From Thaumasiovibrio occultus (lineage in GTDB: Bacteria > Pseudomonadota > Gammaproteobacteria > Enterobacterales > Vibrionaceae), in NCBI GenBank assembly GCA_019703815.1, contig AP023052.1, forward strand, positions 186,001 through 250,000: a stretch of 64,000 nt of DNA, read 5' to 3'. Positions 18,819 through 32,525 of the stretch are shown piece after piece. The notes beneath the pieces are model-generated. The model made no database searches, had not been told where the DNA came from, and was given only the letters and a program-made list of their open reading frames with translations. Both the position numbers and the translations under genes were made by a program. Within the stretch, counting starts at the first letter, position 1. The number at the start of each line of letters is the position of its first letter.

Positions 18819-19069
18819 AATCTTGGTGGGTAACCACAGACTTTCGCTTAACTATGTGTAATCGTGTTATTGAGTGGTAGGTCGCTAACTTTTCTCAGGT
18901 TGCCAAACGGGTCGCGAGTAGTGACATATTTTGAAACGCTTTCTTAAACAAGCGATCAAATCGTCATTTTATTCAAACCACCAAGCAACATTCTGATCAC
19001 ATTGGCATGAATTTAGTCGTCAATCACCGTGTCGTTAGGAAGACGGATGCAGTCAAAAGGAAGAGCGTG

Positions 19070-19837
19070 ATGAAACCGTTAGTCGTGAAATTGGGTGGCG
19101 CTGTACTGTCAGATAGCGCTCTGTTAACTCAGCTATTTGATGTGATTGCGGCGCAAGCGAAACATCGTGCCATTGTCGTGGTTCACGGTGGTGGCTACTT
19201 GGTTGACGATCTGATGGCGAAGTTGCAGCTGCCCACCGTGAAAAAGAACGGTTTACGAGTGACTCCGGCCGATCAAATCCCGGTGATTGCAGGCGCACTG
19301 GCGGGGACAGCAAACAAGTTGTTGTTAGGCCAAGCGATGCGTTCGGGTTTCAAAGCGGTGGGTTTGTGTTTGGCGGATGGCGGTTTGTGCGAAGTGAGCG
19401 TTCTCGATGCTGAGTTGGGCTCGGTGGGCGATGCCAAACCCGGTGATGGCGCGTTAGTGTCAGCCATTTGCGCCCAAGGCGTGGTGCCGATCATCAGCTC
19501 GATTGGCTTGGATAGCCACGGCGAGTTGATGAACGTGAACGCTGATCAAGCCGCGGTTGCGGTAGCCGGGGCGCTGGATGCGGAGCTGGTGCTGCTGTCC
19601 GATGTACCGGGCGTATTGGACGGTAATCGTGAGCTAATCACCGCGCTGACAGAAGCGGATGCCGAAGCATTGATCACCGCTGGCGTGATCACCGATGGGA
19701 TGATCGTCAAAGTGCACGCGGCATTTGATGCGGCGAAGTCGCTCGGCAGGCCGATTGAAGTGGCTTCGTGGCGAGACCCTGCGTTATTAGAGCAATTATT
19801 TTCAGGCGGATCCGTCGGTACGCGATTCGCAGTATAA
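19070..19837 (+). CDS. argB: N-acetylglutamate kinase
   Basis: Second step of arginine synthesis, phosphorylating N-acetyl-L-glutamate. From the ATG at 19070 ([13 protein letters not shown], with AAGGAAGAG just upstream) the protein is 255 aa, the usual length of the arginine-insensitive enterobacterial type. An in-frame ATG at 19007 would add 21 unrelated basic residues and lacks a ribosome site. The motifs [10 protein letters not shown] and GLRVT and the C-terminal [12 protein letters not shown] are conserved. It is the first gene of argBGH here; in Vibrio argC normally precedes it, but not in this window. Confidence 0.96.
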
Positions 19838-19912
19838 GCAAATTTTCATAATGAATGATGGTGCGCCGTTTCGGATTGACCGCCGCACGGCACAAAGCAA
19901 GGAGAGAAGGTA

Positions 19913-21118
19913 ATGAGCAAGATTAATAAAGTGGTATTGGCCTATTCTGGCGGTCTCGATACGTCGGCGATTATTCCTTGGCTAAAAGAGAACTACGACT
20001 GTGAAGTGGTTGCGTTTGTGGCCGATGTTGGCCAAGGCGACGCAGAGCTTGAAGGTGTGGAAGCGAAGGCACTGGCTTCTGGTGCGTCGGCTTGTTACAT
20101 CGCCGATCTAAAAGAAGAATTGGTTTCAGAGTACATCTACCCAACGCTTAAAACTGGCGCGGTGTACGAAGGGAAATACTTGCTCGGTACGTCAATGGCG
20201 CGTCCTATCATTGCCAAAGCGCAAGTTGAATGTGCGCTTGAAGTGGGAGCCGACGCCCTGTGTCACGGCTGTACGGGTAAAGGTAACGACCAAGTGCGTT
20301 TCGAAAGCTGCTTTGCTGCATTGGCGCCACAACTGAAAGTGATTGCGCCGTGGCGTGAGTGGGACATGCGTAGCCGTGAAGATCTGCTTAATTACCTGGC
20401 TGAGCGCAACATCCCATGTTCCGCGTCACTGGAAAAAATCTACTCGCGTGATGCGAACGCATGGCACATTTCAACTGAAGGTGGCGTGCTAGAAGAAACG
20501 TGGAACCAACCGAACGAGCACTGCTGGGCGTGGACTAAAGATCCTGAAGACGCACCAAACCAAGCTGAGTTGGTATCAGTGAAAATTGAGAAAGGCCAAA
20601 TTGTCGCGGTAGACGGTGAAACCATGTCGCCATACAACGCGTTGGTGTACTTGAATGCCAAAGGTATCGAGCACGGTGTTGGCCGTATTGATATCGTTGA
20701 AAACCGTATGGTGGGCATGAAGTCGCGTGGTTGTTACGAGACGCCGGGGGGCACCATCATGATGGAAGCACTGCGTGCGGTTGAGCAACTGGTACTGGAT
20801 AAAGAGTGTTTCGATTTCCGTCAAAACATCGGCTTGAAGTTCTCTCACCTGGTTTACGATGGCCGTTGGTTCACGCCGCTATGTAAGTCTTTGCTCGCCG
20901 CCGCTGAAGCGATTGCTGAAGACGTGAACGGTGAAGTGGTGTTGAAGCTATACAAAGGCAACGTGACCGCAGTTCAGAAGCGTTCTGACAACAGCTTGTA
21001 CTCAGAAGAGTTTGCGACCTTCGGTGAAGACGAAGTGTACGATCAAAGCCACGCGGAAGGCTTCATCCGTCTTTACTCTCTGGCGAGCCGTATCCGCGCG
21101 TTCAACAACCAGAAGTAA
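19913..21118 (+). CDS. argG: Argininosuccinate synthase
   Basis: Joins citrulline and aspartate with ATP. The 401-aa protein belongs to the common type 1 family of about 400 aa, with the PP-motif ATP site AYSGGLDTS near residue 9. The segments [15 protein letters not shown] and [11 protein letters not shown] are conserved. Shine-Dalgarno GGAGAGAAGG before the ATG at 19913. Part of the argBGH operon. Confidence 0.98.
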
Positions 21119-21123
21119 GCGAT

Positions 21124-21192
21124 TTGGCGCTCGGGATGAGCGCCAACAAGCAATAGCAATGTGAGTGTAAAGGGCAGGCGATGTACCTGCCC
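21124..21192 (+). other. Two strong hairpins between argG and argH
   Basis: Perfect 9-bp stem TTGGCGCTC / GAGCGCCAA (21124-21146, loop 5 nt) and perfect 7-bp stem GGGCAGG / CCTGCCC (21172-21192, loop 7 nt) fill the 110-bp gap. Neither has a T run, so they are not standard terminators. They may protect mRNA ends or set the ratio of argG to argH. Confidence 0.6.
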
Positions 21193-21228
21193 GATTCAGT
21201 TCTATGTCGAGTGATCAGGAGAGAGACA

Positions 21229-23103
21229 ATGGCATTATGGGGTGGACGATTCAGTCAAGCGGCCGACACGCGGTTCAAGCAGTTTAACGACTCGCTGCGC
21301 TTTGATTATCGACTGGCTGAGCAAGATATAGTTGGCTCTATCGCCTGGTCTAAAGCCTTGACCTCTGTCGGCGTTCTGACCGAAGAAGAGCAGCAAGCGC
21401 TAGAGTTGGCATTGAATGAACTCAAGCTGGCGGTGATGGAAGATCCTGAGCAGATCTTGCAATCGGACGCCGAAGACATTCACAGCTGGGTGGAGCAGCA
21501 GTTGATTGCCCGCGTTGGCGATCTCGGCAAAAAGCTGCACACCGGTCGTTCGCGTAACGATCAGGTGGCGACCGATCTCAAGCTGTGGTGTAAGCAGCAA
21601 AGCCAGCAACTGCTGTTGTTACTCGATAAACTGCAAAACACCCTAGTGAACGTGGCGCGCGAGCACCAAACCACCGTTTTGCCAGGCTACACTCACTTGC
21701 AACGCGCTCAACCGGTGACGTTTGCACACTGGTGTTTGGCGTATGTCGAAATGTTTGAACGTGATTATTCGCGTTTGCAAGATGCGATGGATCGTTTCGA
21801 TACCTGTCCGCTCGGCAGCGGCGCGCTGGCCGGCACCGCGTATGCGATTGACCGTGAAGCGTTGGCGCACAGTTTGGGCTTCCAACGTGCGACCCGCAAC
21901 AGCCTTGATTCTGTCTCGGATCGCGATCATGTGATGGAGCTCATGTCGGTCGCGTCAGTATCGATGCTGCACTTATCGCGGATGGCTGAAGATTTGATCT
22001 TCTATAACTCGGGCGAGTCGAACTTTATTGAGCTGGCCGATACCGTGACGTCGGGCTCGTCGCTGATGCCGCAAAAGAAAAATCCGGATGCGCTTGAGCT
22101 GATCCGCGGCAAAGTCGGCCGTGTCTACGGCGCAATGTCGGGCATGATGATGACAGTGAAAGCGTTGCCGCTTGCCTACAACAAAGACATGCAAGAAGAC
22201 AAAGAAGGTTTGTTTGACGCGCTGGATTCATGGGCCGATTGCATGGAAATGGCGGCGTTGTGCTTTGAAGGGATCAAAGTGAACCGCGAGCGTACCCTTG
22301 AAGCGGCGATGCAAGGGTACTCGAATGCGACTGAGCTGGCAGATTACTTGGTCGCGAAAGGCATTCCATTCCGTGAAGCGCACCATATTGTCGGTGTCGC
22401 GGTGGTGGAAGCGATCCATCAAGGTTGTGCGTTAGAAGAGCTGAGCCTTGAGGTGATGAAAGGCTTCTCTGAAGTGATTGATAACGATGTTTATCCAATC
22501 TTAACCATAGAGTCTTGCCTTGAGAAACGTTGCGCCTTGGGTGGCGTGGCACCACAGCAAGTCGAATACGCGATCGATCAAGCCGGTAAACGCTTGGAGA
22601 AACGTTACTCGCCGACGGTAAAAGTGCGTAATGCGCGTTTGACCGATCTCGATGCCATTGAAGGCATGGTGGCGTACTGGTCGGGGCTGGGGGAAAACCT
22701 ACCGCGTAAACGCAACGAGTTGGTGCGCGATATTGGTTCGTTCTCGGTCAGTGAGCATCAAGGTGAAGTGACCGGTTGCGGCTCGCTGTACGTGTATGAT
22801 TCTGGCTTGGCTGAAATTCGCTCGCTGGGTATTGAAGCGGGCTGGCAAGGCCAAGGTCAAGGCCGCGCGATTGTCGAGCACATCCTAGAGCAAGCCCAAC
22901 AAATGGCGATCAAGAAGGTGATTGTGTTGACGCGAGTGCCGGAGTTCTTCATGAAGATGCACTTTATTCCGACATCGAAAACCTTGTTGCCTGAAAAAGT
23001 GATGAAAGATTGCGAGCGTTGTCCGCGTCAATTAGCGTGCGATGAGGTGGCGCTGGAGATCAATCTCGAAGAGCTGCGCGGCAATCATTCGCAAGTAGCG
23101 TAA
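21229..23103 (+). CDS. argH: Argininosuccinate lyase fused to an N-acetyltransferase, ArgH(A)
   Basis: The 624-aa bifunctional protein starts at the ATG at 21229 (ALWGGRFSQ), just after AGGAGAGAGA. Residues 1 to about 460 are argininosuccinate lyase with the signature [12 protein letters not shown] near 278. From about residue 462 to the end there is a GNAT acetyltransferase domain with the acetyl-CoA loop WQGQGQGRA near 540 and a C-terminal [11 protein letters not shown] cysteine cluster. In Vibrio and some marine relatives this fused domain is known to supply N-acetylglutamate synthase activity (ArgA). One gene therefore encodes the first and last steps of arginine synthesis. Last gene of argBGH, with a terminator behind it. 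Confidence 0.96.
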
Positions 23104-23132
23104 GCACGAACGAGAAAGATGAATTTTTAGTT

Positions 23133-23159
23133 AAAGTCGGCATTTATGCCGGCTTTTTT
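23133..23159 (+). terminator. Terminator of argBGH
   Basis: Stem AAAGTCGGCAT / ATGCCGGCTTT (one G-T pair) with a 2-nt apex and a run of six T, 30 bp after argH. Confidence 0.88.
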
Positions 23160-23177
23160 GATGTTATATCGTACGGA

Positions 23178-23195
23178 TTGTCAGCCAACTGTCAC
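23178..23195 (+). promoter_or_regulatory. Pho box upstream of alkaline phosphatase
   Basis: Heptamers TTGTCAG (23178-23184) and CTGTCAC (23189-23195) separated by CCAA form the 7-4-7 PhoB-binding direct repeat with 11-bp period. It lies 51 bp before the phosphatase ATG, right for replacing a -35 element. This points to induction under phosphate starvation. Confidence 0.82.
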
Positions 23196-23246
23196 ACACC
23201 AATCGCAACCTAAGCCCTAAGTTAATTGTTAATACAGGGAAAGAGA

Positions 23247-24710
23247 ATGAAAACTTGGCTGTTATTACCCACCGCGTTAACCACCTTTGCACTCACTCAA
23301 ACTCACGCACTGGCCAATGAGCCGACGACGTTCGCACCGACGCTACAAACTAACGATAGCTGGTTTAAAGAGGGGCAATCGGTGTTGTCGGCAGCGATGC
23401 AAACCGCGCCAATCAACACCCCAGCGCGCAATATCATTTTGTTTGTCGGTGATGGGATGAGTGTCGGCACCATGACGGCGGCACGAATTTACGCAGGGCA
23501 ACAAGCCGGCGATAGCGGGGAAGAGTTCCGCTTAGAGATGGAAGCACTGCCGCATGTGGCGATGTCGAAAACCTACAATACCGATATGCAAACACCTGAC
23601 TCTGCCGGTACGGCGACCGCGATGGTGACGGGGGTAAAAACCAAGGCGGGGACCTTGGGGGTGAACGATAACGTCCAGCGCGGTTTTTGTAGCACCATCA
23701 AGGGCAATGAAGCGAAAACCATTTTCCAAATCGCCGCCGAAAAGGGCAAGGCGCTGGGCGTGGTGTCCACCGCCCGTTTAACCCATGCCACGCCTGCGGC
23801 GACCTACGCGTACAGCGCGGATCGTAACTGGGAAAACAACACCACGCTGACCAATATCAGCGTAGAGCAGGGCTGTCGTGATATCGCCCAGCAGTTTGTT
23901 GATTACGATTATGGCTTTGGCGGTTTTCAAGTGGCATTGGGGGGCGGTCTGCGTGAGTTTACCTTGGTAAGTGATGGCGGTAAGCGCACCGATCATGACT
24001 TAACGACGCTGTGGCAGCAGCGTTATCCCGACGGGGCGTTTGTGTCGGATCACGCCGCGCTGATGGACATTGATGTGAGCGAAACCGAGCGTTTGTTTGG
24101 TTTGTTCGGCTTAAGCCACATGGATTATGAGCTGGATCGCGATGACTCTCAGCCTTCGTTGGCGCAAATGACGGAAACCGCGATATCCATGCTGGCGAAA
24201 AACGATGACGGCTACATGCTGATGATCGAATCGGGTCGCATCGATCACGCGCACCATGCGGGGAACGCTAAACGGGCGTTGGAAGACACGCTGGCGTTTG
24301 ATGCTGCGATTGCCAAGGCGCTGGCGATGACCGATCCCAACGAAACGCTGATCATTGTCACCGCTGATCACGCCCACACCTTAGTGATGAACGGTTATGC
24401 GCCGCGCGGAAACGATATTTTGGGTTTGGCGATGAACGCTGACGGCCCTGTCAAAGCCGATGATGGTAAAGCTTATACCACGCTGACTTACGGCAACGGC
24501 CCAGGTGCGATTTCGGGTGAGCGCGCAGAGCCAACCGCAGAAGCGGTAGTGGGCGATGATTACTTGCAGCAAGCGCTTATTCCGCTAAGCAGTGAAACTC
24601 ACTCACAAGAAGATGTCGCTATTTTAGCGACCGGGCCGAAAGCGTGGTTGTTCCAAGGTGTAGTGGAGCAGAACTACATTTTCCACGTGATGAACGAAGC
24701 CTTTAAGTAA
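23247..24710 (+). CDS. phoA: Secreted alkaline phosphatase
   Basis: Periplasmic phosphomonoesterase that releases phosphate from organic esters. The 487-aa precursor starts at the ATG at 23247; a Sec signal peptide ends near residue 23 (THALA before NE). Metal ligands and nucleophile are visible: DGMS near residue 69, Ser119 in TPDSAGTATA, IESGRIDHAHHAG near 330 and TADHAH near 380. The nucleophile motif DSAGTATA resembles marine and Vibrio phosphatases more than the E. coli DSAASATA form. It has its own Pho box and terminator. The gene stands alone between the arg operon and the oxyR region. Confidence 0.92.
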   Translation: MKTWLLLPTALTTFALTQTHALANEPTTFAPTLQTNDSWFKEGQSVLSAAMQTAPINTPARNIILFVGDGMSVGTMTAARIYAGQQAGDSGEEFRLEMEALPHVAMSKTYNTDMQTPDSAGTATAMVTGVKTKAGTLGVNDNVQRGFCSTIKGNEAKTIFQIAAEKGKALGVVSTARLTHATPAATYAYSADRNWENNTTLTNISVEQGCRDIAQQFVDYDYGFGGFQVALGGGLREFTLVSDGGKRTDHDLTTLWQQRYPDGAFVSDHAALMDIDVSETERLFGLFGLSHMDYELDRDDSQPSLAQMTETAISMLAKNDDGYMLMIESGRIDHAHHAGNAKRALEDTLAFDAAIAKALAMTDPNETLIIVTADHAHTLVMNGYAPRGNDILGLAMNADGPVKADDGKAYTTLTYGNGPGAISGERAEPTAEAVVGDDYLQQALIPLSSETHSQEDVAILATGPKAWLFQGVVEQNYIFHVMNEAFK

Positions 24711-24734
24711 GTTTGGTGCCTCGGCCCGTAATGA

Positions 24735-24758
24735 AAAAGCGCACCGAGGTGCGCTTTT
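24735..24758. terminator. Bidirectional terminator after phoA
   Basis: Perfect 11-bp stem AAAAGCGCACC / GGTGCGCTTTT with a 2-nt apex, between convergent phoA and the oxidoreductase gene. Confidence 0.88.
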
Positions 24759-24785
24759 GTCGTTGTAGATGCGTAGTGAGCGAGA

Positions 24786-26249
24786 TCAACAGCCTGGGCC
24801 GCAATCTAGACAGTGCTTGATCATTTCAGGACCAAGGTGCAGTTTGGCGTTCAGATCGCGCAGTGCGGTACGTACACCTTCTTCGATCACTGGATGGTAG
24901 AACGGCATATCAAGCATTTCAGAGATGGTCATCTTGTTCTGATGCGCCCATGCCAACAAGTGGGCAAGGTGCTCTGCGTTCGGTCCCATCATTTCCGCGC
25001 CAAGGAAGCGGCCAGTGCCTTGCTCGCCGTAAACGTGCAGCAAACCTTTGTTGCGCAGCATGACGCGAGAGCGACCTTGGTTTTCAAACGACACTTCACC
25101 GACTGCGAAACAGCCACAGGTGCCTAAGCGCTGTTGCAACTGTTTGAAGGTTTCACCGACCATCGCGATTTGCGGATCGGAAAACACCGCTGAAATTGGT
25201 GTGCGGCGCAGACCTGCTCGGATATCAGGGAAGCGCCCGGCGTTGTCACCGGCGATCCGCCCTTGGTCTGCGGCTTCGTGTAGCAACGGAATTTGGTTGC
25301 TCGCATCACCGGCAATAAAGATGCTGTCGACCGAGGTTTGCAAGGTAAAGTGATCCGCCGTTGGTACGCCACGCTCGTCCAGTGCCACATCGGTGTTTTC
25401 AATTGCCAGTTGGTCGACGTTCGGACGACGGCCTGTTGCCGCTAGCACGTAGTCAACGATGAAGGTTTCGATCTCACCGTCATGGTTCACAAATTGAATT
25501 TCAACTTTGTCACCGTCAGCGGAAGTGATGCGCTTCATGCTTTCAACTTTCACGTCAGCATCTAAGTAGAACTCTTCTTTAAACGCTTTATCGGCGTATG
25601 CCATTACGTCTGGATCGGTCAGTGGGCCGACTTGACCACCAAGGCCAAACAGTTTGACCTCCACGCCCAAGCGATGCAGGGCTTGACCCAGTTCAAGGCC
25701 AATCACACCGGGGCCAAATACGGCGACGGCGTCAGGGAGATCGTCCCACTCAAACACGTCGTCATTAATCACTAGGCGATCGCCTAATTCATTCCACACT
25801 GCAGGGTACGCAGGGCGAGAGCCCGTCGCAATAACAATGCGCTTCGCGGTAATTTGGGTATGGTCGTCAACTATTAGGGTATTGTTATCAATAAATTTGG
25901 CGTAACCGCGAAGTTTGTCTTCAGCTGGAATTTCATCAACGCCTTCGAGTACAAAGCCGACGAAGCGATCACGTTCGCGTTTGACGCGATCCATGACTTC
26001 ACGGCCGTTGATCACGATGTCACCTTGTGGATGGACACCAAAGCCTGGCGCTTTTTCGATCTGGTGAACACTCTCTGCGGCCGCAATTAAAAGTTTTGAT
26101 GGCATACAGCCAACGCGCGCACAGGTTGTGCCGTACGGGCCACCTTCGATCATCACAACACTATCGGTATGAGATTTGGCTGCACGATACGCACCTAATC
26201 CCGCTGTACCACCGCCGATCACGGCAACATCAACATTGAGCTGTTTCAT
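24786..26249 (-). CDS. Dihydrolipoamide dehydrogenase-like disulfide oxidoreductase with Cys-rich tail
   Basis: FAD/NAD(P)H pyridine-nucleotide disulfide oxidoreductase of 487 aa. It has the FAD site GGGTAGLGA near residue 12, the redox pair Cys43/Cys48 (CARVGC), a second dinucleotide fold near 194 (GPGVIGLELG), a second FAD motif IFIAGDA, and the C-terminal catalytic His in FYHPVIEEG. It resembles Lpd but sits apart from any 2-oxoacid dehydrogenase genes. It ends in HCLDCGPGC, with Cys480, Cys483 and Cys487. The gene lies behind a peroxiredoxin-glutaredoxin hybrid on the same strand and next to oxyR, which suggests it reduces a thiol of the peroxide defence pathway. That role is inference; a true lipoamide dehydrogenase activity is not excluded. 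Confidence 0.85.
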   Translation of the reverse strand: MKQLNVDVAVIGGGTAGLGAYRAAKSHTDSVVMIEGGPYGTTCARVGCMPSKLLIAAAESVHQIEKAPGFGVHPQGDIVINGREVMDRVKRERDRFVGFVLEGVDEIPAEDKLRGYAKFIDNNTLIVDDHTQITAKRIVIATGSRPAYPAVWNELGDRLVINDDVFEWDDLPDAVAVFGPGVIGLELGQALHRLGVEVKLFGLGGQVGPLTDPDVMAYADKAFKEEFYLDADVKVESMKRITSADGDKVEIQFVNHDGEIETFIVDYVLAATGRRPNVDQLAIENTDVALDERGVPTADHFTLQTSVDSIFIAGDASNQIPLLHEAADQGRIAGDNAGRFPDIRAGLRRTPISAVFSDPQIAMVGETFKQLQQRLGTCGCFAVGEVSFENQGRSRVMLRNKGLLHVYGEQGTGRFLGAEMMGPNAEHLAHLLAWAHQNKMTISEMLDMPFYHPVIEEGVRTALRDLNAKLHLGPEMIKHCLDCGPGC

Positions 26250-26286
26250 GGTTTTCTCTTTTAATTGTTTGGCAGGAGAGTGAAGT

Positions 26287-26308
26287 AGGGCGGCGAATGT
26301 GCCGCCCT
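26287..26308 (-). other. Hairpin between peroxiredoxin and oxidoreductase genes
   Basis: Perfect 8-bp GC-rich stem AGGGCGGC / GCCGCCCT with a 6-nt loop in the 94-bp gap between the two minus-strand genes. No T run follows on the minus strand, so it may act as an mRNA processing or attenuation element rather than a full terminator. Confidence 0.55.
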
Positions 26309-26343
26309 TAGTTTGCTGATTAGCAATGGAGTGTGAGAGACGC

Positions 26344-27075
26344 TTACTTGGTTAGGAAGCTTTCTAGCTCTTCGCTGCCACCAATGTGCTTACCGCCGAT
26401 GAAGACTTGAGGCACTGTGGTGCGACCTGAAATTGCGCGCAAGCTCACTGTGGTTGCATCTTTACCGAGTACCACTTCTTCGTAGTTTAGGCCGTGATCA
26501 ATTAGGTTTTGTTTTGCTTTGGCACAGAACGGGCAACCAGGTTTAGTGAATACCGTGATGGATTCTTGCATTTTGTGCTCTGGCGCGATGTAGTTCAGCA
26601 TAGTGTCTGCATCAGATACTTTGAACGGGTCGCCTGGCTCGTTTGGCTCGATAAACATTTTCGCGACAACGCCGTTTTTCACTAGCATGCTGTAACGCCA
26701 TGAGCGGTCGCCGAAACCAAGATCTTCTTTGCTCACTAGCATGCCCATGCCTTTGGTGAATTCACCGTTGCCGTCTGGGATGAAGGTGATGTTTTCTGCT
26801 TCTTGGTCGTCTTTCCATGCATTCATGACGAAGGTATCGTTCACTGATACACACAGAATGCTATCAACACCGTGCTCAGCAAATACTGACGCTAGCTCGT
26901 TGTAACGAGGTAGGTGAGATGATGAACAGGTCGGGGTAAATGCGCCTGGTAGACTGAATACGATGACATTTTTGTTTGCGAATAGCTCTTCCGTGGTCAC
27001 GTTAACCCATTGGTCGCCTTGGCGAGTTGGGAAAGTTACGTTAGGGATTTGTTGACCTTCTTTTGATTCAAACAT
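26344..27075 (-). CDS. Peroxiredoxin-glutaredoxin hybrid protein
   Basis: Thiol peroxidase of 243 aa with two fused domains. Residues 1-165 are a Prx5-type peroxiredoxin with peroxidatic Cys50 in PGAFTPTC. Residues about 171-243 are a glutaredoxin with the CPFC redox pair (Cys181, Cys184) and TVPQVFI, the glutathione-binding cis-Pro. Such hybrids, as in Haemophilus, reduce hydrogen and alkyl peroxides with electrons from glutathione delivered by their own glutaredoxin domain. It is divergent from oxyR across an OxyR-type site and is followed by the disulfide oxidoreductase. Peroxide-inducible expression is likely. Confidence 0.95.
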
Positions 27076-27173
27076 GTATTGCTTCCTTATCTATTTTTCA
27101 AATTTGTTAAAGCATAAAGTTCTTTGCGCTTTGTTGATGTGATGATTATGTGATTTCTGATACGATAGTTCTA

Positions 27174-27210
27174 ATCACTTGTTGTTATCGTTTCGATTGG
27201 TAATTTCTAT
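27174..27210. promoter_or_regulatory. Candidate OxyR operator between prx-grx and oxyR
   Basis: OxyR sites follow ATAG-N7-CTAT-N7-ATAG-N7-CTAT. Here three of the four elements appear with exact 11-bp phase: TTAT (27185-27188, 3/4), ATTG (27196-27199, 3/4) and CTAT (27207-27210, 4/4). The first (27174-27177) is poor; a GATAG at 27165-27169 is out of phase. It lies directly before oxyR in the divergent region, where autorepression would be expected. Confidence 0.6.
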
Positions 27211-27223
27211 CAAAGGTCGGTAT

Positions 27224-28126
27224 ATGAATATCAGAGACTTGGAGTATTTGGTCGCGCTGGCGGAGCATCAGCATTTTCGACGAGCAGCGGAAGCTTGTTT
27301 TGTAAGTCAACCCACCCTGAGTGGTCAAATTAGAAAATTAGAAAATGAGCTCGGCGTCACTTTGTTAGAGCGAACCAGCCGTAAAGTGCTGTTTACCGAC
27401 GCAGGGTTACGTTTAGTTGAGCAAGCAAGGCGCGTGTTGCTTGAAGTGAAAGTGTTAACCGAGCTTGCGAGCCAGCAAGGCGAAAGCATGACGGGCCCAA
27501 TCCATATTGGTTTGATCCCGACGGTGGGGCCCTATTTGTTGCCGCACATTGTGCCGCTGCTGCGGGAGATATTCCCAGAGTTGGAGCTGTATCTGCATGA
27601 AGGTCAAACGAATGAGTTGGTGGATCAACTCGAAAGCGGGAAACTCGATTGCTTGATTTTGGCGTCAGTGAAAGAGACCGAGCATTTTATCGAATTGCCG
27701 CTCTATGATGAGCCAATGGTATTGGCGATCCCAGAATCGCACCGCTGGGCTGGGCAGCAGATCTTCGATTTACCCCAGCTTAACGGCGAAACCTTGATGA
27801 TGCTGGGCAGTGGCCATTGTTTGCGCGATCAGGCAATGGGTTTTTGCTTCTCTGCTGGTGCAAATGAAGATGGCCACTTTAAAGCAACCAGCTTAGAAAC
27901 CTTGCGTAATATGATTGCAGCCGGGGCGGGGATCACCTTGCTGCCACGTTTAGCGACGCCTGCTAGTGGCACGCGTGATGGGGTGTGTTATTTGCCAGTT
28001 GAGAACCCAACCCCGAGCCGTACGATCTCGTTAGTGTATCGTCCAGGATCGCCGCTGAGACCTCGTTATGAAAAGCTCGCCGGTGTGGTGAGCGAGCACA
28101 TTGAAGCGAGCGATTGCTTGGTTTAA
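27224..28126 (+). CDS. oxyR: OxyR, peroxide-sensing LysR-type regulator
   Basis: The 300-aa LysR-family activator starts at the ATG at 27224 (NIRDLEYLVALAEHQHF); an upstream in-frame extension is not conserved. The winged HTH covers residues 1-60. The peroxide-sensing cysteines are at Cys199 and Cys208 (GHCLRDQAMGFC), the same numbers as in E. coli OxyR, so the disulfide switch is intact. It is divergent from the peroxiredoxin-glutaredoxin gene, its likely target. Confidence 0.97.
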   Translation: MNIRDLEYLVALAEHQHFRRAAEACFVSQPTLSGQIRKLENELGVTLLERTSRKVLFTDAGLRLVEQARRVLLEVKVLTELASQQGESMTGPIHIGLIPTVGPYLLPHIVPLLREIFPELELYLHEGQTNELVDQLESGKLDCLILASVKETEHFIELPLYDEPMVLAIPESHRWAGQQIFDLPQLNGETLMMLGSGHCLRDQAMGFCFSAGANEDGHFKATSLETLRNMIAAGAGITLLPRLATPASGTRDGVCYLPVENPTPSRTISLVYRPGSPLRPRYEKLAGVVSEHIEASDCLV

Positions 28127-28162
28127 GCCGAGCGAGAAGTCATTTCACTGTTTGACGAAAAC

Positions 28163-28191
28163 AAAAAAGCCAGCGTTGAACGCTGGCTTTT
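28163..28191. terminator. Bidirectional terminator between oxyR and mrcA
   Basis: Perfect 12-bp stem AAAAGCCAGCG / CGCTGGCTTTT class hairpin with a 5-nt loop, A run on the left and T run on the right, between convergent genes. Confidence 0.88.
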
Positions 28192-28215
28192 CAATTAACG
28201 GCTTAGCACGCAGAG

Positions 28216-30777
28216 TTAGAACAACTCTTCAGGTGCTTCCTCGCCTTCTTCAGTATCGAAGATGCTTTGGCGTTGTACGTGATACTCAGTTGGCTCAGTG
28301 CCTTTAACGAAGTATTCGTACATGCTGTTGCGATCGCTACGGGTGGTCAGCAAACCGGTGTTACGGTTAATGCGCACACGCACGATGTTGTTCGGTACCA
28401 CTTTACGTTGCTCAGGCACATCAGCAAGGGCAACTTTCATGAAATCAACCCACGCAGGCTGTGCGATGTTACCACCGGCAGAGCCGCCTACGATTTGGCG
28501 ATCGCCCATGTTCGGGTTACGCGATGTACGGCCGAGTGAACGGCTGTGGTTATCGAAACCGACCCACACCGACGCAACGATGCCTGGGCCATAACCCACA
28601 TACCAAGTATCTTTCGATTCGTTGGTGGTACCGGTTTTACCGCCGATATCGTGACGGCCGAGTGCGCGACCACGCCAACCAGTACCTAGCCATTCGCGAT
28701 CACCCCAAATGTTACTTTCGAGCATTTCGCGCATGATGAATGTTGCTTCGCGCGTCATTACTTGCTGGGTGTACGGCGAATCGTCTTCAGGGGTTTCTTC
28801 GGTCAGCAGGTTTTCTTCAACAACAGCGCCATCGTCGGTCTCTGTGGTTGTCTCTTCTGCGCCTACGGCTTCTTCTGCTGGTTCTTCTTGAGCAAACTGA
28901 TCTTTGTTGAAGGTAAGCTCTGGCGGTGGGCAGTTTTCCTGACAAACCGTTTTAGGCTCAGCTTGGAAGATCACGTTACCGTCTTTATCTTCAACACGTT
29001 CGATAAAGTAAGGCTTAACGTAGTAACCGTCGTTGGCAAAGACCGCAAAACCTTGCGCCATTTCTAGCGGGGTTAAGTTACCCGCGCCCAGTGCGATGGC
29101 TTCAGCGTACGGTAAGTCATCACGTTTGAAACCGAAGCGTGGCAAGTAGTCGAGGGTTTCAGCCAGACCTACACGTTGCAAAATACGCACGGCCATTACG
29201 TTTTTCGATTGCGCCAAACCGACGCGGGTACGCAATGGACCTTCATAACGCTCTGGTGAGTTCTTTGGACGCCACGCGGTGCCCATGCTCTCATCCCAGT
29301 GGTTAAACGGCGCATCGTTGATCAAGGTCGCGAGTGTCATACCACGTTCAACGGCTGCAGCGTAGATGAATGGCTTGATACTTGAGCCCACTTGACGAAT
29401 CGACATCGTGGCACGGTTAAATTTGCTGTGACTGTAGTCAAAACCGCCTACCAGCGCGACAACGGCACCATCAAACGGTGAAATTGCGGCAAAAGCCGTA
29501 TTGGCTTCCGGCACCTGACTCAACGACCAATTTTCTTCCTGTTTTACGGCATATATCACATCACCGTTGCTGAAAACATCGCTCGCCGCCTTCGGTGCAT
29601 TGCCTTGACGGGTGTCACTGATGAATGGACGCGCCCATTTCATACCGTCCCAATCAATAGTTCCTGCGTCACCTTCACGGGTGATGATCTGTGCGGTTTT
29701 GCCTTCAACTTGGGTTACGACCGCTGGAACTAACTTGTAATACGCCGAATAAACTTTCAGTTTCTCAAGGATTTCATCATGTGAAAGTGCGCTTTCACCT
29801 TCCCACAACTTCGCGATAGGGCCGCGATAGCCGTGGCGTTGATCGTAAGCGAGTAGGTTGCCGATGGCCGCATCGTTCGCCGCTTCTTGCAGCTTACTGT
29901 CAGCAGTGGTGTAGATGCGATAGCCTGAGTTGTACGCTTTATCTTCGCCGTATTGTTCTACCGCCCACGCACGAGCAATTTCAGCCATGTAGCCAGCGTT
30001 AACTTCAGGCTTTACGTAGTGGCGCTTAGCGACAACGGGCTCAGCTCGTGCTTGGTCGTACTCAAATTGAGAGATAAAGCCAACTTCCAGCATACGACCC
30101 AAAACGACATTGCGGCGTGCGGTAGCACGTTCAACTGACGCAATAGGGTTAAGTGATGAAGGTGCTTTTGGCAGACCTGCAATGAGGGCCATTTCACCAA
30201 GGGTGAGCTCGCTCAACTCTTTGCCGTAATAGACTTGTGAGGCCGCAGCAACACCGTAAGAGTTCTGACCTAAGAAGATTTTATTGAGATATAACTCGAG
30301 AATTTCTTCTTTGGTCAGTAGCTGCTCAATGTGAAGTGCGATAAAAATCTCTTTTACTTTACGAACGATGGTTTTTTCGTTGCTCAGGAAGAAATTTCGT
30401 GCCAGCTGTTGAGTGATGGTACTTGCACCTTGTTTTGGCTGTCCGGTTGACACCCAAACAACGAAGGCACGGGTAATACCAATCGGGTCAATACCGTAAT
30501 GCTCGTAATAACGTGCATCTTCGGTAGCAAGTACCGCATCAATTAGCGGTTTAGGTATGTCTTCTAGCTTTACAGGTATACGACGAGTCTTGGCAAACTG
30601 TTGTAGAAGTTTCCCGTCACTTGTGTATACGTGCATAGGAGTTTGTAACTCTACGTCTCGTAGGGTGGCTACATCCGGTAAATCTGGCTTCACATAAAGA
30701 TAGGCGCCAAAAATTGTAGTGACTCCAAGAATTATGCAAATTAATGCAAACGCTAGTAGTAGCTTTATGAACTTCAC
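28216..30777 (-). CDS. mrcA: Penicillin-binding protein 1A
   Basis: Bifunctional class A PBP of 853 aa anchored by one N-terminal membrane segment (about 5-27). The glycosyltransferase domain has the catalytic ATEDARYYEHYG near residue 85 and KQGASTITQQLARN near 120. The transpeptidase domain carries SIKPF near 460 and KTGTT near 745. An acidic, Glu/Thr-rich insert of about 45 residues lies between them, where E. coli PBP1A also has a non-conserved insert. Divergent from pilMNOPQ, the standard arrangement in gammaproteobacteria. Confidence 0.97.
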   Translation of the reverse strand: MKFIKLLLAFALICIILGVTTIFGAYLYVKPDLPDVATLRDVELQTPMHVYTSDGKLLQQFAKTRRIPVKLEDIPKPLIDAVLATEDARYYEHYGIDPIGITRAFVVWVSTGQPKQGASTITQQLARNFFLSNEKTIVRKVKEIFIALHIEQLLTKEEILELYLNKIFLGQNSYGVAAASQVYYGKELSELTLGEMALIAGLPKAPSSLNPIASVERATARRNVVLGRMLEVGFISQFEYDQARAEPVVAKRHYVKPEVNAGYMAEIARAWAVEQYGEDKAYNSGYRIYTTADSKLQEAANDAAIGNLLAYDQRHGYRGPIAKLWEGESALSHDEILEKLKVYSAYYKLVPAVVTQVEGKTAQIITREGDAGTIDWDGMKWARPFISDTRQGNAPKAASDVFSNGDVIYAVKQEENWSLSQVPEANTAFAAISPFDGAVVALVGGFDYSHSKFNRATMSIRQVGSSIKPFIYAAAVERGMTLATLINDAPFNHWDESMGTAWRPKNSPERYEGPLRTRVGLAQSKNVMAVRILQRVGLAETLDYLPRFGFKRDDLPYAEAIALGAGNLTPLEMAQGFAVFANDGYYVKPYFIERVEDKDGNVIFQAEPKTVCQENCPPPELTFNKDQFAQEEPAEEAVGAEETTTETDDGAVVEENLLTEETPEDDSPYTQQVMTREATFIMREMLESNIWGDREWLGTGWRGRALGRHDIGGKTGTTNESKDTWYVGYGPGIVASVWVGFDNHSRSLGRTSRNPNMGDRQIVGGSAGGNIAQPAWVDFMKVALADVPEQRKVVPNNIVRVRINRNTGLLTTRSDRNSMYEYFVKGTEPTEYHVQRQSIFDTEEGEEAPEELF

Positions 30778-30939
30778 TTGAGAATTCCTGTTCGGCTTAA
30801 GTCCGTGGGTTATTAACGGTTAAAGCCATAGTATAAAAGATTACTCAGACAAAAAAACAATAATAAATTTCGCGCTAGTAACCGATGCGCGCGTGTTGAG
30901 CGGTTTGCAGGACATGCAAACAGGAGAGTCGAGGACGAC

Positions 30940-31935
30940 ATGTTTCAAAACCCCATCAGTATTGGCCTTGATATTGGTAACCACAGTATCAAAATGGTGG
31001 TCGTCGAGCTAAGAAGGAAGAAACCATTTCTCCTTGCTTGCCACGAGCGAGTCTTGGCGTCACCCATCATTAATGACCAGCATAGTGTAGATGAAGGTGC
31101 TTTGCTGTCAGAGCTGCGTCAAATTCGAAAGGTCTTACCGAGCAAAGCACGGAAGGTTTCGATGGCGCTGCCAGATAGTGCAGTGATCAGTAAAGTCGTG
31201 CACTTAGATCCGAGCTTGTCGGACAGAGAGTTGCATTTTGCTGTTCGTCAGGCACTTGCCACATCTTCGCCGTTCCCCGTGGACGAGCTACAGATAGACT
31301 ATTTTGCCGTAGATAAAGGCGATGCAGCAGGAGCCTCAAGTGCTTCTACTGTTGCGTTTCAGGTTTATGCGTGCCGTAAACAGGTGCTTGTAGGTCGACA
31401 CAACGCGTTGAAAAAAGCCAAGTTGCAGGCAGATATATTAGAGCTGAAATCTCACGCTCTGGTATGGCTCGGTGAAATTCAAAAAGATGCTCTTCCAGCG
31501 CAACAGAACTGGGCGGTGCTCGATATCGGGATGCGACAAAGCGATTTTTGTGTGGGTGTAAGCCCAAGCCAGTTTTATCGTCGTGAGATCCCAATCGCCG
31601 CTACACAGGTCGCGATGTACAACCCTGGTTTTGACTGGGATCATCCGGACCCACAAGCGTGCGAAACGTTTACCAATAACTTGGCTGAGCAGCTTAAGCG
31701 CCAGATCCAGCTATATAACTCGACGCATCCGAAAGCGCCGTTGGCGGGTATTTGGCTCAGTGGTGGTGGCGATCGTTTGATTGATGCTGATCAGTTGTCA
31801 TCTGAGATTAACCTACCAGTACAATGGGCAGATCCTATTCCACTGCTCGGTGGTAAGCGTAAGGCCGGTAAAGACAAAATCCTGTCGAGCCGCTTTGGCT
31901 TAGCCGTAGGCCTTGCTGTGCGAGGGGTTAACTGA
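30940..31935 (+). CDS. pilM: PilM, actin-like type IV pilus assembly ATPase
   Basis: Cytoplasmic, actin-fold protein (331 aa) with N-terminal phosphate-binding IGLDIGNHSIKMV and the second phosphate loop GIWLSGGGDRL near 270. PilM binds the N-terminal tail of PilN and links the inner-membrane PilNO platform to the pilus motors. It starts with a good AGGAGAG site and overlaps pilN by one base (TGATG). In Vibrio the pilMNOPQ operon serves type IV pili for DNA uptake and attachment. Confidence 0.95.
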   Translation: MFQNPISIGLDIGNHSIKMVVVELRRKKPFLLACHERVLASPIINDQHSVDEGALLSELRQIRKVLPSKARKVSMALPDSAVISKVVHLDPSLSDRELHFAVRQALATSSPFPVDELQIDYFAVDKGDAAGASSASTVAFQVYACRKQVLVGRHNALKKAKLQADILELKSHALVWLGEIQKDALPAQQNWAVLDIGMRQSDFCVGVSPSQFYRREIPIAATQVAMYNPGFDWDHPDPQACETFTNNLAEQLKRQIQLYNSTHPKAPLAGIWLSGGGDRLIDADQLSSEINLPVQWADPIPLLGGKRKAGKDKILSSRFGLAVGLAVRGVN

Positions 31936-32525
31936 TGATTAAAATTAACTTATTCCCCTGGCGCGAATGGCAACAACAACATCAGCGTGAACGCTTAATG
32001 GGGATTATTATCGGTGCGCTACTGATCACTGTGTTGTCAGTGTTCCTTGGCGTGAAGATGGTACAAGGCCAGCAACGGGTTCAAGATCAGCGTAATGAGC
32101 CTATTCGCGGTCAGATCCGTGATTACAACAACCGCTTGGCGAGCAAAATGCCAGTGCTACAAGCAAAACGTAGTGAGTTGATTCGCCGTATCGAAGTCAT
32201 TAACACGATTCAGATGCAGCGTAACCGAGTCACTGAACTGCTCAATGTCTTCCCTAAGTTGATTCCGGATGGAGTTTACTTACAGCAGTTATCAGTAACT
32301 GGCGCAAATATTTCATTGGGCGGTCAGGCTGACGGTAACTCACAGTTGGCCACCTTCTTAGCTAACGCAGAAGAGCATCCACAGATTAAAAATATCAACA
32401 TGCAGCACATAGTGACCAATCGCCAGGGACGAGCTTCTCAGCAAGTTTCTTTCAAAGGGTCATTTAGTTGGGTGCTGGCGGATACGTTAGCGCAAGCACA
32501 AGCGCAGGGAGGGACAAATGAGTGA
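31935..32525 (+). CDS. pilN: PilN, inner-membrane alignment protein
   Basis: The 196-aa bitopic protein begins MIKINLFPWRE, the conserved PilM-binding motif (IN-L-PWR). A membrane helix spans about residues 22-44, then a periplasmic coiled coil and a ferredoxin-like domain that pairs with PilO. It overlaps pilM by 1 nt and pilO by 8 nt, consistent with coupled translation. Confidence 0.95.
   Translation: MIKINLFPWREWQQQHQRERLMGIIIGALLITVLSVFLGVKMVQGQQRVQDQRNEPIRGQIRDYNNRLASKMPVLQAKRSELIRRIEVINTIQMQRNRVTELLNVFPKLIPDGVYLQQLSVTGANISLGGQADGNSQLATFLANAEEHPQIKNINMQHIVTNRQGRASQQVSFKGSFSWVLADTLAQAQAQGGTNE

Follow-up and report, generated by a model that had tools for sequence, protein, structure and literature searches.

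The locus examined here raises the question of what a flavoprotein disulfide reductase (FDR) with a cysteine-bearing C-terminal tail does next to a peroxidase gene. The reductase gene lies on the reverse strand of the window, by which is meant the whole 64,000-nucleotide stretch of Thaumasiovibrio occultus DNA that was analysed (contig AP023052.1, positions 186,001 to 250,000), in a locus with a gene for a peroxiredoxin-glutaredoxin fusion (Prx-Grx, gene prxgrx) and oxyR. A preliminary description of this DNA had proposed that the tail could make the enzyme a reductase for the Prx-Grx system and an alternative to glutathione reductase (Gor). The reading we tentatively favour is that of an NAD(P)H-dependent disulfide reductase encoded at the OxyR locus with a tail dithiol like those of mercuric reductase (MerA) and high-Mr thioredoxin reductase (TrxR), which may supply Prx-Grx/glutathione reduction alongside Gor.

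A disulfide reductase with a conserved CxxC tail

The features of the gene are as follows.

24786..26249, reverse strand: flavoprotein disulfide reductase gene, 487 aa, NF004939 (PRK06292.1-1), a complete open reading frame (ORF) with a hidden Markov model match
26106..26123, reverse strand: CARVGC redox-active pair, Cys43 and Cys48, from the sequence and present in 27/27 aligned Vibrionaceae
24879..24896, reverse strand: H452-P-V-I-E-E457, the catalytic His-Glu pair of disulfide reductases, from the sequence
24801..24812, reverse strand: the tail CxxC, C480-L-D-C483, from the sequence, 28 and 31 residues past His452
24789..24791, reverse strand: Cys487, the final residue, lineage-specific, from the sequence

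The 487-aa protein carries the Pfam domains Pyr_redox_2 and Pyr_redox_dim, and together with the CxxxxC and HxxxxE motifs these make it a class I FDR. Both the CARVGC pair (C43-A-R-V-G-C48) and the HCLDCGPGC ending with Cys480, Cys483 and Cys487 (H479-C480-L-D-C483-G-P-G-C487-stop) are as the preliminary description had read them. All 27 tail-clade and all 54 tailless proteins compared retain His452 and Glu457.

Conservation of the tail was followed in three sets of loci: Vibrionaceae (80 loci, the 80 best among 150 relatives detected), the order (63 loci from 62 genomes over the family cut-off, with genome G562 counted with two copies) and the class (70 loci, members with an unfetched region or a match cut by a contig end being excluded). 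An alignment of 27 Vibrionaceae proteins shows no variation at C480, C483 or C487, and 79/80 Vibrionaceae loci end in C[LM]DCGPGC (71 CLDCGPGC and 8 CMDCGPGC); in the exception, L094, the frame is broken just past Cys480, which may be a draft error. CxxC is present in 61 of the 63 order loci and in 6 of the 70 class loci, all six inside the tail clade, while the large sister clade ends without it. The terminal Cys was found in 79/80 Vibrionaceae, 41/63 order and 0/70 class loci, and tail variants include CMECGVGS, CQTCPGE, CLRCPGE and CVTCQECGIA. A residue comparison of 27 tail-clade with 54 tailless proteins gave Cys480 in 26/27 versus 1/54, and among the tail-clade proteins Cys483 in 24/27 and Cys487 in 9/27. 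Since Cys487 is far less kept than Cys480 and Cys483, the durable feature is the CxxC and not a set of three cysteines; the conserved unit, on this distribution, is the pair, with the third cysteine optional and lineage-specific, and a larger role for Cys487 was dropped for that distribution. A tail kept to this extent is not a product of chance.

One protein of the tail clade, L164 (G409:C10, 505 aa, open, beside prxgrx), has DNPVDY in place of CARVGC and a repeat-like PLNNGPLNNG in place of the CxxC tail, and from its sequence looks like a decayed or repurposed pseudo-enzyme. As the sole tail-clade protein without CARVGC also lacks CxxC, it is one case for a shared mechanism of the two.

The place beside prxgrx is shared with glutathione reductase

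The neighbours that define the locus are the following.

26344..27075, reverse strand: prxgrx, peroxiredoxin-glutaredoxin fusion, 243 aa, TIGR02190 with Redoxin and Glutaredoxin
27224..28126, forward strand: oxyR, divergent, NF008361 539 bits (cut-off 329)

The fusion is identified by TIGR02190 (135.5 bits, cut-off 99.3), Redoxin (119 bits) and Pfam Glutaredoxin, and the Grx motifs CPFC, TVPQVF and IGG were spotted by eye. It lies upstream of the reductase gene on the same strand with a 94-nt gap, and the profile matches confirm the neighbourhood as first described, with prxgrx on the same strand and oxyR divergent. Adjacency on the same strand was found in 80/80 Vibrionaceae, 51/63 order and 4/70 class loci, the class figure including L012, whose prxgrx is broken and which was also scored as adjacent on the tree discussed below.

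Gor was the adjacent gene in 17 of 40 class loci where a full-length prxgrx has no NF004939 enzyme beside it; these 40 are the upper part of a longer prxgrx list, and some of their genomes carry a tailless family member elsewhere. In G153, prxgrx lies beside gor and the CxxC-less family member is elsewhere. Gor was beside prxgrx in none of 20 order loci lacking an NF004939 enzyme, and in the fetched flank of none of 213 NF004939-family loci. Since Gor fills the place beside prxgrx in other loci, that place is taken by either of two reductases, and the exchange supports a putative role of the enzyme in recycling reductant for Prx-Grx.

Comparable pairs are on record. Bordetella pertussis has a copZ-prxgrx-gorB operon under copper and OxyR control, whose GorB has been proven to be a glutathione reductase, and a Chromatium glutathione amide reductase/Prx-Grx pair is cited in the same source (PMC7794356). 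In both Chromatium gracile and Bordetella a class I FDR gene likewise adjoins a Prx-Grx gene, and in Bordetella the control is by OxyR. Glutathione amide reductase and GorB belong to the glutathione reductase branch, whereas the 487-aa protein is without the gate Tyr and the NADPH-binding Arg and has the CxxC tail. The neighbourhood argument of the preliminary description has accordingly gained from the adjacency, from Gor in the same place and from the proven activity of GorB.

Lipoamide dehydrogenase as an alternative

NF004939 bears the name dihydrolipoyl dehydrogenase, and the 487-aa protein matches it with 778 bits over residues 1-484 (curated cut-off 435, NCBIfam profile search). The name is an annotation, and most members in the wider class are without the CxxC tail and have an acidic NAD site. 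Family member 3ic9 comes from Colwellia psychrerythraea (PMC8089398) and is the nearest solved chain (597 bits), the alignment ending 13 residues short of the end of 3ic9 and not covering its tail. It is an alternative, though an unlikely one, that the enzyme is an accessory lipoamide dehydrogenase acting on free or protein-bound lipoamide with an incidental tail. Besides the family name, it is favoured by a lipoamide assay of an ortholog described below, in which NADH absorbance was lowered, and by family f106, where the gene of the tailed enzyme is convergent with lplA, encoding lipoate-protein ligase (L182-L184).

The enzyme is, however, not an ordinary lipoamide dehydrogenase (E3). It scores 268 bits with TIGR01350, under the cut-off of 408.8, against 495 bits for the genome's own E3 (L003), and its gene sits in the oxyR-prxgrx locus and not near E1/E2. 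Moreover the second NAD strand ends in Gly in all 27 tail-clade proteins, a position typically acidic in NAD-dependent E3 and acidic in 44/54 tailless proteins and the own E3. The remaining models likewise gave scores under their cut-offs: the glutathione reductase models NF004776 (196 bits, cut-off 480), TIGR01421 (156, cut-off 556) and TIGR01424 (174, cut-off 606), the mercuric reductase model TIGR02053 (273.8, cut-off 454.45, the second-best NCBIfam match), the model TIGR01438 of high-Mr TrxR and thioredoxin glutathione reductase (TGR; 94.6, cut-off 475.85), and, as weak matches, those of RclA (120, cut-off 740) and hypothiocyanous acid reductase (131, cut-off 650). Six matches to the 487-aa protein were found in its own genome, including E3 (495 bits), Gor (761 bits) and SthA (758 bits). 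As the genome has a separate true E3 and a true Gor, the 487-aa protein is a third enzyme, neither the sole lipoamide dehydrogenase nor the sole glutathione reductase of the cell. It is a real, conserved protein that is probably mis-named in databases.

The assayed ortholog is Vibrio splendidus DLD2 (WP_004729673.1), which was purified and, in a weak assay, lowered NADH absorbance with lipoamide, the accessible text describing no lipoamide-free control, and for which surface localisation and adhesion, the latter by antibody blocking, were reported (PMC6816312). DLD2 is identified as an ortholog of the 487-aa protein from the published primers, which code for a protein that begins with MKQVNVDV and closes with DCGPGC; the reverse primer fits the stretch coding for the tail in the gene of V. 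splendidus L068, with 2 mismatches. Possibly another is a V. alginolyticus protein called "DLDH", which shares 60% identity with 3ic9 and has served as a fish vaccine antigen (PMC8089398).

Among more distant relatives, L186-L191 (family f185) match NF004939 with 366-403 bits, under the cut-off of 435, and are without the CxxxxC redox disulfide and the tail; from their sequences these are FDR-fold proteins incapable of the usual disulfide chemistry.

The tail is not tied to Prx-Grx

The association of the enzyme with Prx-Grx is strong by adjacency (80/80 and 51/63), but tail and neighbour are uncoupled in several lineages. The main exception in the order is family f184, with ten genomes ending in CMDCGPGC and having no prxgrx neighbour, three of them with a copy about 3 kb off. 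One of the two G562 copies is also without a prxgrx neighbour, and a phylum sample held two more tailed members (L306 and L308) with no prxgrx in their short flanks. Further enzymes without CxxC beside prxgrx are the decayed copy in G409 and that of G342, whose own prxgrx is broken. A tree of 108 proteins shows 5 changes of the tail and 6 of the neighbour; the tree is a quick one in which the fork uniting the tail clade has a support of 88 and is not starred, and from which G747 (L307) is absent. Strict co-evolution of tail and Prx-Grx was rejected, there being no joint changes on this tree.

Several observations weigh against the favoured reading of an enzyme serving the Prx-Grx/glutathione system. 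Five genomes outside the order (G362, G258, G320, G103 and G220) retain CxxC but have no Prx-Grx fusion, and enzymes beside an open prxgrx are found without CxxC (G066 with CVHSNAVG, G272 with CMETGPGG, and G747 with the tail wholly absent). In independent pairs differing in the tail, three of them on starred branches, the neighbour never shifts likewise. The scores with the glutathione reductase models are far under their cut-offs, Val stands in 27/27 tail-clade proteins where glutathione and thioredoxin reductases have their gate Tyr, and the NADPH-binding Arg of glutathione reductase is Leu in the window protein and Arg in 5/27 tail-clade proteins. Since the second NAD strand ends in Gly and Arg occurs in just 5/27, cofactor preference is not readable from these residues; the ortholog DLD2 takes NADH. 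Structure prediction with 27 close homologues gave a mean pLDDT of 61 and a pTM of 0.48, values under 50 being confined to no single end but covering both the last four residues and the region of CARVGC; the model is too poor for placing the tail or judging its geometry, and no conclusion is drawn from it. Biochemistry on glutathione disulfide, Prx-Grx or the tail was not found in the open full-text literature, subscription papers being mostly outside that search. Two more such points, the general presence of Gor and the persistence of Prx-Grx without the enzyme, are taken up in the next section. The proposal of the preliminary description is thus half right: its link of the tail to Prx-Grx has lost support through the tailed enzymes in fusion-free genomes and the CxxC-less enzymes beside prxgrx; since tail and neighbour are uncoupled, the function of the tail belongs to the enzyme itself.

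In L012/L185 (G342) a frame-broken prxgrx, which could be a draft error, immediately precedes the gene of a tailless member that branches near the base of the tail clade, and from these two the prxgrx-reductase pairing looks ancestral. L012 was considered as a redoxin-reductase fusion and rejected, the broken prxgrx running into the same open frame. The second G562 copy (L123/L204) is tailed, groups with Photobacterium sequences and adjoins a glutathione S-transferase gene, which looks like horizontal transfer with a glutathione-related neighbour. The f106 genomes (L182-L184) have neither a Gor match nor a Prx-Grx fusion.

The uncoupling also favours a second alternative, improbable in our view to about the same degree as a lipoamide dehydrogenase, namely a reductase acting under stress on some other small oxidant or disulfide (products of hypothiocyanous or hypochlorous acid, coenzyme A disulfide or persulfides) linked to Prx-Grx by shared regulation only. 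Tailed members in Prx-Grx-free genomes and the f184 gene away from prxgrx are consistent with it, as is the class I FDR nature of the related RclA and hypothiocyanous acid reductase. The scores with these two models (120/740 and 131/650) argue against it, and the neighbour exchange with Gor favours a role on the glutathione side.

A proposed supplement to glutathione reductase

Gor scored over the cut-off in 61/61 tested order genomes carrying an enzyme of the 487-aa type, so that within the order the enzyme can only supplement glutathione reductase, and replacement was rejected there. Outside the order, 12 genomes have members in the tail clade or near the root (L008-L019); Gor was found in 4 of these, versus 231/369 in the class sample. 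The 8 that have no Gor belong to five families, with one genus contributing three of them, and are too few for a claim. The proposed alternative to glutathione reductase therefore fails as a simple replacement in the order but may hold in family f69 (G066 and G302), where the enzyme is beside prxgrx and no Gor of either type was over the cut-off. Of 13 genomes checked, gshB was found in 12, including G066 and not G302. Family f69 is, on gene content, the best candidate for a true Gor replacement.

The enzyme is also dispensable. It is missing from 13/20 genomes of genus g273 of the same family, 9 of which keep Prx-Grx, and Prx-Grx persists enzyme-free throughout f3; it is from this persistence that dispensability follows. 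A 44-residue remnant of the reductase gene end, 89% identical, lies beside prxgrx in G614 (L273, 3334-3465), and together with the g273 absences it indicates that the reductase gene is lost at times. The Prx-Grx of Haemophilus influenzae, PGdx, is glutathione-dependent, with thioredoxin no substitute, and reportedly not in an operon (PMC1361801). It is the same fusion as the prxgrx neighbour, and no gene resembling lipoamide dehydrogenase is present in the f3 genomes that have a comparable stand-alone Prx-Grx.

Proposed mechanism and remaining alternatives

The enzyme we tentatively favour would be a dimeric NAD(P)H-dependent flavoprotein in which electrons pass from NAD(P)H via FAD to Cys43/Cys48, and from there to the dithiol that Cys480 and Cys483 form on the other subunit's C-terminal tail. 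The tail dithiol may then reduce a substrate too large or too exposed for the buried disulfide, as do the C-terminal cysteines of MerA and high-Mr TrxR. Its likeliest job would be extra reducing power for the Prx-Grx peroxidase under peroxide stress, beside the ordinary glutathione reductase, either by reduction of glutathione disulfide or of a glutathionylated/disulfide form. The substrate would most likely be on the glutathione side. Y21, R22 and F99 are specific to the tail clade (26/27 each, rare or absent in the 54 tailless proteins), which suggests a substrate different from that of the tailless clade. Y21 and R22 are on the substrate side of the FAD domain, and R22 aligns with the Asn that the own Gor has at a specificity position of glutathione reductase.

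High-Mr TrxR and TGR resemble the 487-aa protein in a tail dithiol near the C-terminus. The tail cysteines are 25-26 residues from the catalytic His in TrxR and 23-24 in MerA, close to the 28 and 31 here, and the high-Mr TrxR tail is GC(U/C)G where the 487-aa protein has CxxC with GPG. MerA, an FDR, has its C-terminal Cys pair on a flexible end segment and Tyr at the catalytic His position (PMC10587081); the 487-aa protein shares the Cys pair and keeps His452.

Far less likely is an enzyme whose CxxC tail would let it reduce the neighbour's Grx domain directly with NAD(P)H and without glutathione, a bacterial TGR counterpart on a scaffold like that of lipoamide dehydrogenase; if true, these bacteria would have a reductase dedicated, much like AhpF, to a peroxidase that has until now been considered glutathione-dependent. 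Equally doubtful is a tail that binds metal (zinc, copper or mercury) or acts as a regulatory thiol switch with no electron shuttle, perhaps in a MerA-like metal-handling reductase, for although MerA is the second-best model (274 bits) and the third Cys, being variable, could be a metal ligand, the score is under the cut-off of 454, His452 is kept where MerA has Tyr, and no mer or copper genes were noticed by eye among the ORFs at positions 19000-32000 of the window.

Expression and other features of the locus

One further feature lies between the two genes.

26287..26308, no strand assigned: GC-rich hairpin, perfect over 8 bp, in the prxgrx-reductase gap, without a strong T run

The terminator listing for the window has no entry at 26287-26308. 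Hairpins of unrelated sequence are present in the same gap in most relatives listed, some followed by T runs, in a comparison that covers the listed part of 95 prxgrx-reductase gaps and is without a shuffled control. This suggests attenuated read-through from prxgrx into the reductase gene, and in the window partial read-through past the hairpin, which would give some co-expression, is likely. V. cholerae prxA (VC2637) is divergent from oxyR and is induced more than 10-fold by H2O2 in an OxyR-dependent manner (PMC3534063, PMC5289545). No report on co-induction of the reductase gene was found in the open literature. Elsewhere in the window, an argH ORF of 640 aa (21181-23103, forward strand) has a C-terminal stretch resembling an acetyltransferase domain by eye, as in known ArgH(A) fusions.

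Implications

The gene has been annotated as a lipoamide dehydrogenase and its protein handled as an adhesin (PMC6816312); the sequence, the oxyR-prxgrx locus and the exchange with Gor point instead to peroxide defence. Should the tail prove to be an electron shuttle, the solution found in MerA and TrxR would have arisen once more in a separate FDR branch. The relatives with and without CxxC, and with and without Prx-Grx, form a natural series for testing such tails.
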